Shown piece by piece: positions 28,574 through 32,566 of a DNA stretch of 64,000 nt. This DNA is from Candidatus Tectomicrobia bacterium. Its GTDB lineage: Bacteria; UBA8248. Made by a program: the position numbers and the translations under genes. Where the stretch lies: the NCBI GenBank assembly GCA_016192135.1, contig JACPUR010000019.1:62001-126000 (forward strand), given 5' to 3'. The notes beneath the pieces were generated by a model that had not been told where the DNA came from, did no database searches, and was given only the letters and a program-made list of their open reading frames with translations. Position 1 is the stretch's first letter; every line of letters begins with the position of its first letter.

Positions 28574-29242
28574 GTGGCCAAGAAACCGCAGCAGCGCGCG
28601 AGGCGGCCGCAGCCGCCGGCGAAGAGGGCCGGCTTCTCCCGCCGGGGGATCGCCGTGGCCGCCGTCCTGGCCGCGCTTCTCCTGGCCGGGCTCTGGGCTC
28701 AGTTCGGCGGCAAGGAGGCCCCGCCCCTCCCGCCCCCCCGGACGGCGGACGGGAGGGTGACGGTGCTGGAGTTCTCGGACTATGGCTGACCTTTCTGCGC
28801 TCAGGTGCAGGGTGCACTGGGAAGGCTGAAGCTGGAGTTCGCGGGCAAGATTGAGTTCCAGGCGCGGGACTTCCCCCTGCGGCCCCTCACCTTCCGCGCC
28901 GCGGAGGCGGTCCGCTGCGCGGGGGACCAGGGCAAGGGGGAGGAGATGCGCGGCATGGTCTTCTCGGGCCAGCCGGCCTGGGCCACGAGCCCGAGCCCGG
29001 ATTCGGTCTGGACGGGCTACGCGCGGGGCCTCAACCTGGACCCGGAGAAGTGGGGGAGCTGCGTGCGCTCCGAGCGGCACCGCTCCGCCATCGAGGCGGA
29101 CCACGAGCTGGGGGTCCGCATGGGCGTGAGCGCGACCCCGACGATCTTCATCGGCGGGCGCAAGATCGACGGGGCGGTGCCCTTCGAGACGCTCGCCGAG
29201 GCGGTGCGGGCCGGGCTGCAGGGAGCGCCGGCGGGGCGTTGA
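28574..29242 (+). CDS. DsbA-like thioredoxin-fold selenoprotein (in-frame UGA at active site)
   Basis: A single reading frame with one in-frame TGA at 28787-28789. Read as selenocysteine it gives a 222-residue membrane-anchored thiol oxidoreductase: TM about 24-42, then VTVLEFSDYG-U-PFCAQV, so Sec72 replaces the first Cys of the DsbA C-x-x-C motif and Cys75 is the partner. The conserved thioredoxin cis-proline follows in VSATPTIFIGGR (Pro about 189). Reading frame, codon use and similarity continue unbroken past the TGA. A hairpin at 28800-28821 fits a bacterial SECIS. The start is GTG 28574 with AAGGA. The stop overlaps the next gene, a MauE-like quinone-linked partner. A pseudogene is the alternative but is unlikely given the precise placement of the TGA. 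Confidence 0.9.
28800..28821 (+). promoter_or_regulatory. bacterial SECIS-like hairpin of the DsbA-like selenoprotein
   Basis: Upper stem GUGCA (28805-28809) with UGCAC (28813-28817), apical loop GGG (28810-28812), and a lower stem of C14-G35, U15-G34, C16-G33 and G18-U32 with A17 bulged (numbering from the U of UGA). There are 20 nt between the UGA and the loop. The bSECIS rules (loop 16-37 nt after UGA, at least 4-bp upper stem, G among the first two loop bases) are all met. It resembles the E. coli fdhF UGCA-GGUC-UGCA tip. Confidence 0.75.
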
Positions 29243-29718
29243 GCGGGCTCCTGGGCGCCCTGGCGCGGCCCTGGCCGGCGCTGGCGTTCCGGCTGGCCGT
29301 GGGCGGCTTCTTCGCGGCGGCTGGCCTGGGCAAGCTGGCCCGGCCGGCGGAGCTCTTCGCCGCCCAGATCCGCTCGTTCGGGCTCGTGCCCGAGGCGTGG
29401 GCGCTGCCGCTGGCCCGCGTCCTGCCGTGGGCCGAGCTCCTCTCCGGAGGGCTCCTGATCGCGGGGCTCTTCACGGGGGCCGCGGCGGCGGCGGTGGCGG
29501 TCCAGCTCGGGCTCTTCTCGGCCGTGCTGGGGATCGCGCTCGCCGCGGGGAAGGCCCCCGAGGACTGCGGCTGCCTGCCGGGCCTCTCGGAGTCCCCGGG
29601 GCAGGCGCTGGCGCGGGACGTTGCGATGCTTGCATGGGCCGCCCTGGCCGCCCCGGGGCTGCCCGGAAGGCTGTCGCTGGACGGGTGGATGTCCGGCGCA
29701 GAGAAGAAGGAGGATTAG
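29239..29718 (+). CDS. MauE/DoxX-like membrane protein, redox partner of the DsbA-like selenoprotein
   Basis: Four-helix membrane protein of 159 residues (hydrophobic segments about 5-25, 55-75, 78-100, 118-138) with APEDCGCLPG between helices three and four. A C-x-C (CGC) pair at this place is typical of MauE/methylamine-utilisation and DoxX-type proteins that pass reducing equivalents to or from periplasmic thioredoxins. The start is TTG 29239, overlapping the upstream stop as TTGA, so expression is coupled to the selenoprotein. MauE partners with the thioredoxin-like MauD, which supports a working redox pair here. The substrate is unknown. Confidence 0.8.
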   Translation: MSGLLGALARPWPALAFRLAVGGFFAAAGLGKLARPAELFAAQIRSFGLVPEAWALPLARVLPWAELLSGGLLIAGLFTGAAAAAVAVQLGLFSAVLGIALAAGKAPEDCGCLPGLSESPGQALARDVAMLAWAALAAPGLPGRLSLDGWMSGAEKKED

Positions 29719-29722
29719 CGTG

Positions 29723-30814
29723 ATGAGTGGCCGCCGCAAGCGCGATTGGGACGAGCACGGGGGAGACGGCGAGCGCCGCAGCGAATCCCGCCGGGAGCGG
29801 CCCGACTTGGGCCCCCTGGCGCGGATGTCGGGGCGGGCCCTCCGGCGGCTGATCGAGCGGGTGGACATGGACACCCTGAGCCTCGCCCTCCGCTACGCGG
29901 AGGAGGCGCTGGTGCAGCGCGTCCTGCGGAACGTCTCCGCCCGGACGGCCGCCGCCCTTCGCGTGGAGATGGAGGACGGCCCCTCGGCCGCCCCCGAGGA
30001 CTGCGTCGAGGCCCAGCAGGTGCTGCTGGACGTGGCGCACGACCTCGAGGAGCGCGGCGAGATCTCCTTCGAGGGCCCGGCGGACGACGCCCTGCCCCCG
30101 CTCGACCGCGAGCTCGAGCGCCGCATCGTGGCCTTCAGCCTCGCCGAGGCTGGCGCCCCGGACGTCATCGCCCTCGTGGCGGGCCTCTCGGGGCGCGGGC
30201 GCGAGCACGGCCTCGTCTCCCTGGAGCCCGCCCTGGAGCGGCTGCCCGAGGGGGTGCTGGCCGCCGGCCTGCGCATGGCGGTGGACCAGCTCGCCGTCGA
30301 GGAGATCGAGACCGTCCTCGGGCGGCAGATCGACGCCGCGGTCTACGCCATGGAGCGCAACTCCGAGATCGCGGTGGAGGGCGCGCTCTCCATCGTCGAG
30401 GGCGAGGACCAGGAGCGCACCCGCCAGCGGCTGGTCGCCTTCCTGCCCGAGGGCGAGGCCGACTTCCAGCGCATGCCCGAGGTGAGGCTCCCCCCCTCGG
30501 CCCAGGCGGCGAACGACATCATCCGCGCGAGCTGCGACCTGGCCGCCCTGGCCCGCCGCGAGGGCCTCGGCGCCCTCGAGGATCGCCTTGAGGAGCTCCC
30601 GCATCCCCTGCTGGCCCGGGGCGTCCGGCTGGCCCTCGACGGGAACGACCTCGACGAGATCGAGCGCATGCTCCGGCGGCGCAGCCGCAGCCGCGTCGAG
30701 CGCGAGCGGCGGAAGCTCGAGACCCTGCTGGAGGGGATCCTCCTCCTCCGCGAGGGCCGCGACCCCGCCTACATCCGCGAGGCGCTGGAAGGGTTCCTGG
30801 AAGAGAAGGCGTAG
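29723..30814 (+). CDS. FliG-like / MotA-like cytoplasmic chimeric protein
   Basis: 363-residue soluble protein. Residues about 40-115 (ALRYAEEALVQRVLRNVSARTAAALRVEME..EAQQVLLDVAHDLEERGEI) closely follow the FliG C-terminal region (LxxAxEELxxKILxNMSxRAAxxLxEDME..IVxxARxLEExGEI). Two later segments, about 155-210 and 280-325 (RREGLGALEDRLEEL..LLARGVRLALDGNDLDEIERML), look like the cytoplasmic part of MotA/ExbB-type stators (R-E-G-L-L-A-L-E..G-L-x-L-V-x-D-G). No flagellar genes are near. ATG 29723 or GTG 29720 follows a GGAGG. It occupies the place where jag (khpB) normally follows yidC. Function unknown. Confidence 0.72.
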   Translation: MSGRRKRDWDEHGGDGERRSESRRERPDLGPLARMSGRALRRLIERVDMDTLSLALRYAEEALVQRVLRNVSARTAAALRVEMEDGPSAAPEDCVEAQQVLLDVAHDLEERGEISFEGPADDALPPLDRELERRIVAFSLAEAGAPDVIALVAGLSGRGREHGLVSLEPALERLPEGVLAAGLRMAVDQLAVEEIETVLGRQIDAAVYAMERNSEIAVEGALSIVEGEDQERTRQRLVAFLPEGEADFQRMPEVRLPPSAQAANDIIRASCDLAALARREGLGALEDRLEELPHPLLARGVRLALDGNDLDEIERMLRRRSRSRVERERRKLETLLEGILLLREGRDPAYIREALEGFLEEKA

Positions 30815-30907: not shown

Positions 30908-31669
30908 ATGACCGATCGGTCCTCCATCCGGGGGCAGGTGGCGGTGGTGACGGGGGGCGGCGCGGGCATCGGCCTGGCCGTGGTGGAGCGCTTCGCCTCG
31001 GAGGGCGCCAAGATCGCCGTCCTGGACTTCGACCCCGGGCGCGGGGCCGCCGCCGCGGAGAGGGCGAAGGAGGCGGGCGCCGAGGCCCTCTCCCTCCAGG
31101 CCGACGCGGGCTCCCGGGCCGACGCCGAGCGGGCCGCCCGGGAAGTGCTCTCCCGGTGGGGGCGGATCGACATCCTGGTGAACTGCGCGGGGGGCTTCAC
31201 CCACACCGATACGCTCGAAGACCTCGCCGAGGCGGAGTGGGACCGCATCGTGGACTGGAACCTGAAGAGCGCCTACCTGTGCTCTCAACAGGCCGCCCCC
31301 GCCATGAAGAGGCAGGGCTACGGCCGCATCGTGAACATCTCCTCCCAGGCCGGGCGCGAGGGCGTCCTCGAGACCTCGCTCCCCTACAGCTCGGCCAAGG
31401 CGGGGGTGCTGGGCCTCACGCGCCGGCTCGCCGTCGAGCTCGCCCCCCACGGGGTCACCGTGAACGCGGTGGCGCCGGGCCTCGTGCTCTCCCCCCGCGT
31501 GGCCGAGCTGCACAAGGACCGCCTGCCCATGATCTACGCCCAGATCCCCATGCGGCGGGCCGGCGAGGCCGCCGAGATCGCCGACGCCGTCTGGTACCTC
31601 TCCACCCCCGGCGCCTCCTACATCACCGGCGTCACCATCGACGTGAACGGGGGCAGGTTCATGTGCTGA
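30908..31669 (+). CDS. SDR-family oxidoreductase, tandem copy 1
   Basis: Classical 253-residue short-chain dehydrogenase (FabG-like). The cofactor motif is TGGGAGIGLA at residues 16-25. Asp after the second strand (VLDFDPG) suggests NAD(H). Other motifs are NCAGGF, the catalytic Ser in NISSQAGREG, and Y-S-S-A-K as the Tyr/Lys pair. The end SYITGVTIDVNGGRFMC is normal for 3-oxoacyl-ACP reductase-like enzymes. The substrate cannot be told from sequence. A GAGGGAACGCG-ATG leader is present. The next gene is a close paralogue. Confidence 0.9.
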   Translation: MTDRSSIRGQVAVVTGGGAGIGLAVVERFASEGAKIAVLDFDPGRGAAAAERAKEAGAEALSLQADAGSRADAERAAREVLSRWGRIDILVNCAGGFTHTDTLEDLAEAEWDRIVDWNLKSAYLCSQQAAPAMKRQGYGRIVNISSQAGREGVLETSLPYSSAKAGVLGLTRRLAVELAPHGVTVNAVAPGLVLSPRVAELHKDRLPMIYAQIPMRRAGEAAEIADAVWYLSTPGASYITGVTIDVNGGRFMC

Positions 31670-31804: not shown

Positions 31805-32566
31805 ATGAATCGCCCAGCCTCCCTCCTCGGACAGGTGGCGGTGGTGTCGGGGGGCACCGCGGGCATCGGCCTGGCCGCCGCGGAACGCCTCGCCGGAGAG
31901 GGGGCCCGGGTCGCCATGCTGGGCCGCGACCCCGAGCGGGGCGCCGCGGCCGAGGAGCGGGTCCGGCGGTCCTCTCCGGACGCCCTCTTCCTCCGGGCGG
32001 ACGCGGCCAGCCGGGAAGACGTCCAGGCGGCCTTCGGCCAGATCACGGCCCGGTGGCCGAGGCTGGACATTCTGGTGAACTGCGCCGGGGGCTTCACCCG
32101 GGCCGACCCCTTGGAGGGCCTCGCCGAGGCGGAGTGGGACCGCATCGTGGACTGGAACCTCAAGAGCGCCTACCTCTGCGCCCAGCAGGCCGCCCCCACC
32201 ATGAAAAAGGCGGGCTACGGGCGCATCGTCAACGTCTCCTCCGTCGCCGGGCGGGAGGGCGTCCTCGAGGCCTCCCTGGCCTACAGCGCCGCCAAGGCGG
32301 CGATGCAGGGCCTCACGCGCAGGCTCGCCGCCGAGCTCGCCCCCCACGGGGTCACCGTGAACGCCGTGGCCCCGGGCGTCGTCCTCAGCCGGCGGGCGGT
32401 GGAGGTCCACCGCCACCGGATGGAGAAGGTCCTGGCGGCCATCCCGATGGGCCGCACCGCCGAGGCCGAGGAGGTGGCGGACGCGATCTGGTACCTCGCC
32501 TCCCCCGGCGCCTCCTACATCACCGGCGTGACCATCGACGTGAACGGCGGGAGGTTCATGTGTTGA
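31805..32566 (+). CDS. SDR-family oxidoreductase, tandem copy 2
   Basis: Same length (253) and about two-thirds identical to copy 1, with TSGGTAGIG-type cofactor loop (SGGTAGIGLAAAERL), NCAGGF, VSSVAGREG and YSAAK. The second-strand end reads MLGRDPERG, with Gly-Arg in place of the Asp of copy 1, which suggests NADP(H) instead of NAD(H). The identical C-terminal sequence (SYITGVTIDVNGG) and matching lengths point to a recent tandem duplication with cofactor divergence. The 135-bp gap between copies holds no gene. Confidence 0.9.
   Translation: MNRPASLLGQVAVVSGGTAGIGLAAAERLAGEGARVAMLGRDPERGAAAEERVRRSSPDALFLRADAASREDVQAAFGQITARWPRLDILVNCAGGFTRADPLEGLAEAEWDRIVDWNLKSAYLCAQQAAPTMKKAGYGRIVNVSSVAGREGVLEASLAYSAAKAAMQGLTRRLAAELAPHGVTVNAVAPGVVLSRRAVEVHRHRMEKVLAAIPMGRTAEAEEVADAIWYLASPGASYITGVTIDVNGGRFMC

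Follow-up and report, generated by a model that had tools for sequence, protein, structure and literature searches.

A DsbA-like protein with a predicted active-site selenocysteine, encoded next to a MauE-like membrane protein in Candidatus Tectomicrobia

A 64,000-nucleotide stretch of a Candidatus Tectomicrobia genome (the window; all window coordinates below are on its forward, +, strand) carries a DsbA-like/Thioredoxin_4 gene (28574..29242; 222 residues) in which an in-frame TGA (28787..28789) occupies residue 72, the first position of the active-site motif U-P-F-C. In our reading, to which we give a probability of roughly 90%, this UGA is decoded as selenocysteine (Sec) by means of a hairpin that follows it, the product is an anchored periplasmic DsbA-like protein, and the MauE-like membrane protein encoded next to it is its probable partner.

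Results

One in-frame TGA in an otherwise continuous gene

The gene starts with GTG at 28574, with the stop codon of yidC 4 bases upstream, and terminates with TGA at 29240-29242. Within it a single further in-frame TGA was found, at codon 72 in the context EFSDYG-U-PFC, and comparison with homologues placed this codon at the first Cys of their C-x-x-C motif. When UGA is taken as a stop, the frame ends at codon 71, ahead of the active site. When it is read through, the protein gave one continuous match to Pfam Thioredoxin_4 across the TGA (2.1e-23) and a match to DSBA (PF01323) that also spans it (4.7e-15; 56.3 bits against a cut-off of 25.6); DSBA was matched at E <= 0.001 by all seven members of the Sec clade described below. 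The motif T-P-T (residues 188-190; 29135..29143), which we take to be the cis-Pro loop of thioredoxin-fold oxidoreductases, is invariant in 7/7 members, as are Cys 115 and Cys 163. A first-pass annotation, made from the sequence alone, had described one TGA at these positions, exactly at the catalytic Cys of a single thioredoxin-fold protein with a cis-Pro, and its coordinates, frame and motif were all reproduced. Furthermore, comparison of the part 3' of the TGA with the corresponding gene of a genus-mate (G001) gave a dN of 0.195 and a dS of 0.424; thus, the downstream part is constrained as protein.

The TGA is shared by a clade of diverged relatives

One pattern used in the search of genome contigs held a Cys codon, so that UGA-containing genes were under-sampled, and we added a phylum-wide search of 18 genomes in which stops were translated through. 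A close homologue was found in seven of them (the window genome included), each with exactly one in-frame TGA, and in these independent assemblies the TGA lies at the identical codon in 7/7. The proteins of the other six are 70, 51, 50, 46, 50 and 31% identical to the window protein. No close Sec homologue was detected in a second genus-mate (G002). Loci of this clade that carry a name come from metagenome genomes of Candidatus Tectomicrobia, Nitrospinota and Nitrospinaceae.

Among 120 homologous matches examined, taken from the collection search and the relatives and with some genomes present more than once, the codon at the Sec position was TGA in 11 (L012 and L062 included) and TGC or TGT in 100, while the motif was unreadable in nine. 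All 100 distant matches with a readable motif carried TGC or TGT. At the position of residue 72, where the first-pass annotation had suggested testing homologues for Cys or Sec, the close clade therefore has TGA alone and everything readable outside it has Cys codons alone. The two groups are also separated by score, the Sec clade lying above 280 bits and the remaining homologues at or below 126 bits, and in an unrooted maximum-likelihood tree the seven Sec rows formed one side of a 100/99 branch. Being unrooted, the tree does not give the direction in which Sec and Cys replaced each other.

A SECIS-like hairpin and rare codons follow the UGA

A SECIS-like apical hairpin (GGTGCA-GGG-TGCACT; 28804..28818) lies shortly 3' of the UGA, with its GG loop at 28810-28812, 20 nt after that codon. 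The published bSECIS model has a loop of 3-9 nt, a stem of 4-16 bp, a G in the first two loop positions, a spacing of 16-37 nt and a minimum free energy at or below -7.5 kcal/mol (PMC13188914), and the window hairpin falls within these bounds. The hairpin can form in all seven Sec-clade sequences (-8.1 to -17.9 kcal/mol), with a 3-nt loop starting GG (5 nt in G005), a stem of about 4-6 bp and a spacing of 19-20 nt. For four of the seven it is the fold of lowest energy; for the other three, the window's among these, it is not, and the pair probabilities are about 0.2-0.35.

One stem pair is U-A in three sequences, C-G in three others and U-G in the seventh; in the three C-G genomes a Val-to-Ala difference on one side is accompanied on the opposite side by GCG where the others use GCA, a synonymous Ala codon. 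This was the single pair varying on both sides among the seven sequences, and its score was reached by 60 of 500 shuffles and is not significant alone; covariation therefore supports a SECIS element and does not prove it. In addition, five of the 12 codons directly after the UGA (28790..28825) are rare synonymous codons (CCT, GCT, GGT, GCA and GGA), compared with 5/209 in the rest of the gene (Fisher p = 4e-5) in this GC-rich genome. This cluster is consistent with a constraint on RNA structure, and we attribute it to the SECIS-like hairpin. In selD genes of relatives, a hairpin of this type (GGTCC-GGA-GGACC) can form downstream of the gene's own UGA, and three of the four such genes examined are predicted to fold in that way.

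Selenocysteine machinery in the genome

The first-pass annotation had pointed to selA, selB, selC and selD as the genes on which selenoprotein synthesis would depend, and the first three were found. The tRNA-Sec (selC) scored 74.8 bits, above the Rfam cut-off, with anticodon TCA, and selA (540 bits) and selB (389 bits) are adjacent on one contig. selD was not found in this assembly (96.8% complete, 41 contigs), in which the best match was ThiL, and the 6-kb selD neighbourhood of a genus-mate had no counterpart there. On closer inspection, a weak 39-bp match on contig C21 proved not to be selD. Both genus-mates and most of the family members searched do carry selD, and in these relatives (loci L145 and L146) it contains an in-frame TGA itself. 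An assembly gap is the simplest reading of its absence here, true loss being the alternative. Formate dehydrogenase gave no match above the family cut-off and no UGA.

In-frame TGAs were also found in 10 of the 24 AhpC/TSA-type matches of this genome. In the eight of these ten that were read (L186-L193, at G000:C3:12878, C40:110635, C28:318, C5:13320, C35:108473, C30:138634, C1:373267 and C41:155707), the TGA coincides with or adjoins the position expected for the active site, as judged by motif, and two of them (on C40 and C5) have a U-x-x-U motif. The presence of tRNA-Sec, selA, selB and these TGA-bearing genes indicates that Sec decoding is probably in use in this genome, which appears to be rich in selenoproteins. 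As a separate observation, a repeat some 70 bases long is dispersed over many contigs (also at L145:249-319), with about 40 matches, some of which are the same place on both strands.

Fold, topology and the MauE-like neighbour

In the AlphaFold2 model most of the domain has a pLDDT above 90, and a helix at residues 23-44 (28640..28705), which follows a basic N-terminus, is predicted to be a membrane anchor. The basic residues ahead of this helix suggest that the domain faces outward, into the periplasm. The best matches among solved structures were DsbA/TsdA, BdbD and related proteins (4pwo, 7unn and 3eu3), with TM-scores of about 0.55-0.76 and about 22-26% identity; 4pwo also gave a sequence E-value of about 1e-16. 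These share the fold and the position of the C-x-x-C motif with the window protein but have Cys and not Sec, and to our knowledge no MauE partner has been described for any such oxidoreductase of solved structure. ScsC-type proteins, one disulfide isomerase included, were also among the fold matches, as was Wolbachia alpha-DsbA1, one entry of which carries the changes C97A/C146A. The spacing of the latter two residues is about that of Cys 115 and Cys 163, which may be the same pair. From sequence and model, the product is most likely a membrane-anchored, periplasm-facing DsbA-like thiol-disulfide oxidoreductase.

The next gene (29239..29718) encodes a MauE/DoxX-like membrane protein with an EDCGC motif, and its TTG start overlaps the stop codon of the Sec gene (TTGA). 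It matched Pfam MauE (PF07291) at 2e-22, with 80.3 bits against a cut-off of 27. A MauE-like gene lies 3' of the Sec gene in six of the seven Sec genomes, G005 having no adjacent MauE gene, and it follows the Sec gene also in G008, G010 and G012, where yidC is not a neighbour. Furthermore, members of the MauE family with the CGC motif were found just 3' of Cys-type DsbA-like homologues at eight other loci, four of which are named Elusimicrobia. This recurring pair of DsbA-like and MauE genes is the main functional clue, and the adjacent MauE-like protein is probably the redox partner of the Sec protein. Beyond this gene the window contains an open reading frame with a FliG C-terminal domain (29621-30814), 80% identical in genus-mate G001, and a tandem pair of similar short-chain dehydrogenase genes (30908-31669 and 31805-32566).

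Discussion

An ordinary Cys-type gene for a DsbA-like protein, hit by a nonsense mutation or misread in sequencing, would explain why one TGA breaks an otherwise intact frame, and the lack of selD in this assembly would fit such a pseudogene as well. Six other genomes, assembled independently and with 31-70% protein identity to the window protein, also have TGA at this codon, and this reading is therefore rejected; the constraint on the sequence 3' of the TGA, the hairpin and the rare codons argue against it too. We consider it exceedingly improbable; the first-pass annotation, too, had noted that a random nonsense mutation would fall on this one codon by chance alone, and had seen no other defect. 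No more weight is given to a genome-wide reassignment of UGA to Trp or Cys, with no selenium involved. It would account for the many TGA-containing frames of the genome, but the Sec gene itself ends in TGA, so UGA is still a stop; the in-frame TGAs that were read sit at or beside the redox active sites of thioredoxin-fold proteins, and tRNA-Sec, selA and selB are present. We infer, as had been proposed at the outset, that Sec is inserted in the protein, on the evidence of codon conservation, the hairpin, tRNA-Sec, selA and selB.

A third explanation accepts Sec insertion and concerns what the protein does. It may act mainly as a reductase, an isomerase or a detoxifying thiol enzyme and not as a disulfide-forming DsbA, and the MauE-like neighbour would then donate electrons to it and not accept them. 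Selenols favour reductive chemistry, and the ScsC-type proteins among the fold matches, with their disulfide isomerase, point the same way. Against this, most of the best matches, by fold as well as by sequence, belong to the DsbA/BdbD/TsdA type, and MauE is associated with the formation of disulfides in methylamine dehydrogenase. We regard this explanation as a real possibility that falls somewhat short of even odds.

Under our preferred reading, SelB with Sec-tRNA would read UGA 72 as selenocysteine, directed by the hairpin directly 3' of it, and a single N-terminal helix would anchor the product with its DsbA-like domain on the periplasmic side. The Sec72-x-x-Cys75 pair may then exchange electrons with protein thiols or disulfides, with the CGC motif protein next to it as redox partner, on the model of the proposed cooperation of MauD with MauE or of DsbA with DsbB. 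MauD and MauE of methylamine utilisation likewise combine a thioredoxin-like protein with a CGC-motif membrane protein of the MauE family, whereas in the present pair a DsbA-like selenoprotein takes the thioredoxin-like role, and its gene lies beside yidC in three genomes. None of the identified neighbours of the Sec gene was a methylamine gene, and in the collection of papers searched there was none on MauE/MauD.

Selenoproteins with UxxC of the DsbA-like and DsbG-like kinds have appeared in the literature since 2005 (PMC1088965, PMC2398784), and a 2026 review (PMC13188914) includes them, in agreement with the first-pass remark that such proteins were already known from metagenomes. Form 1 of the DsbA-like selenoproteins (PF01323, UxxC; PMC13188914, PMC2398784, PMC1088965) has the same DSBA domain, a Sec at the first position and a SECIS-like hairpin after the UGA, and the window protein shows its listed features, PF01323 above the cut-off and UPFC. 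The clade described here differs from form 1, as far as the published description sets them apart, in having been seen in one phylum and in being paired with MauE. The best NCBIfam match, found for all seven members, was the DsbG-like/Rcas_1661 family (NF041057, COG1651), which is likewise thioredoxin-like with UxxC. The score was 54.1 bits against a curated cut-off of 190, and the window protein is therefore not a member by that model; furthermore, the members of NF041057 are described as lipoproteins, whereas the window protein has a predicted N-terminal helix anchor. The window protein thus belongs to a separate Sec-only clade within an already known kind of selenoprotein, and its novelty is modest. 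Among the papers searched, none was found that names both Tectomicrobia and selenoproteins. The pairing with MauE is the freshest part of the finding.

We give about even chances to the proposal that the Sec-DsbA protein and its MauE-like neighbour form a selenium-dependent disulfide-exchange system of the envelope, in which a Trx_4/MauE module that recurs in other phyla, and is otherwise built on Cys, would here use Sec instead. Gene-calling software for which UGA is only a stop cuts the gene at codon 71 and loses the active site, so that annotation is likely to miss the protein and, with it, the MauE pairing. With Sec here and Cys elsewhere, the gene pair offers a natural comparison of what selenium contributes to disulfide chemistry in the envelope.
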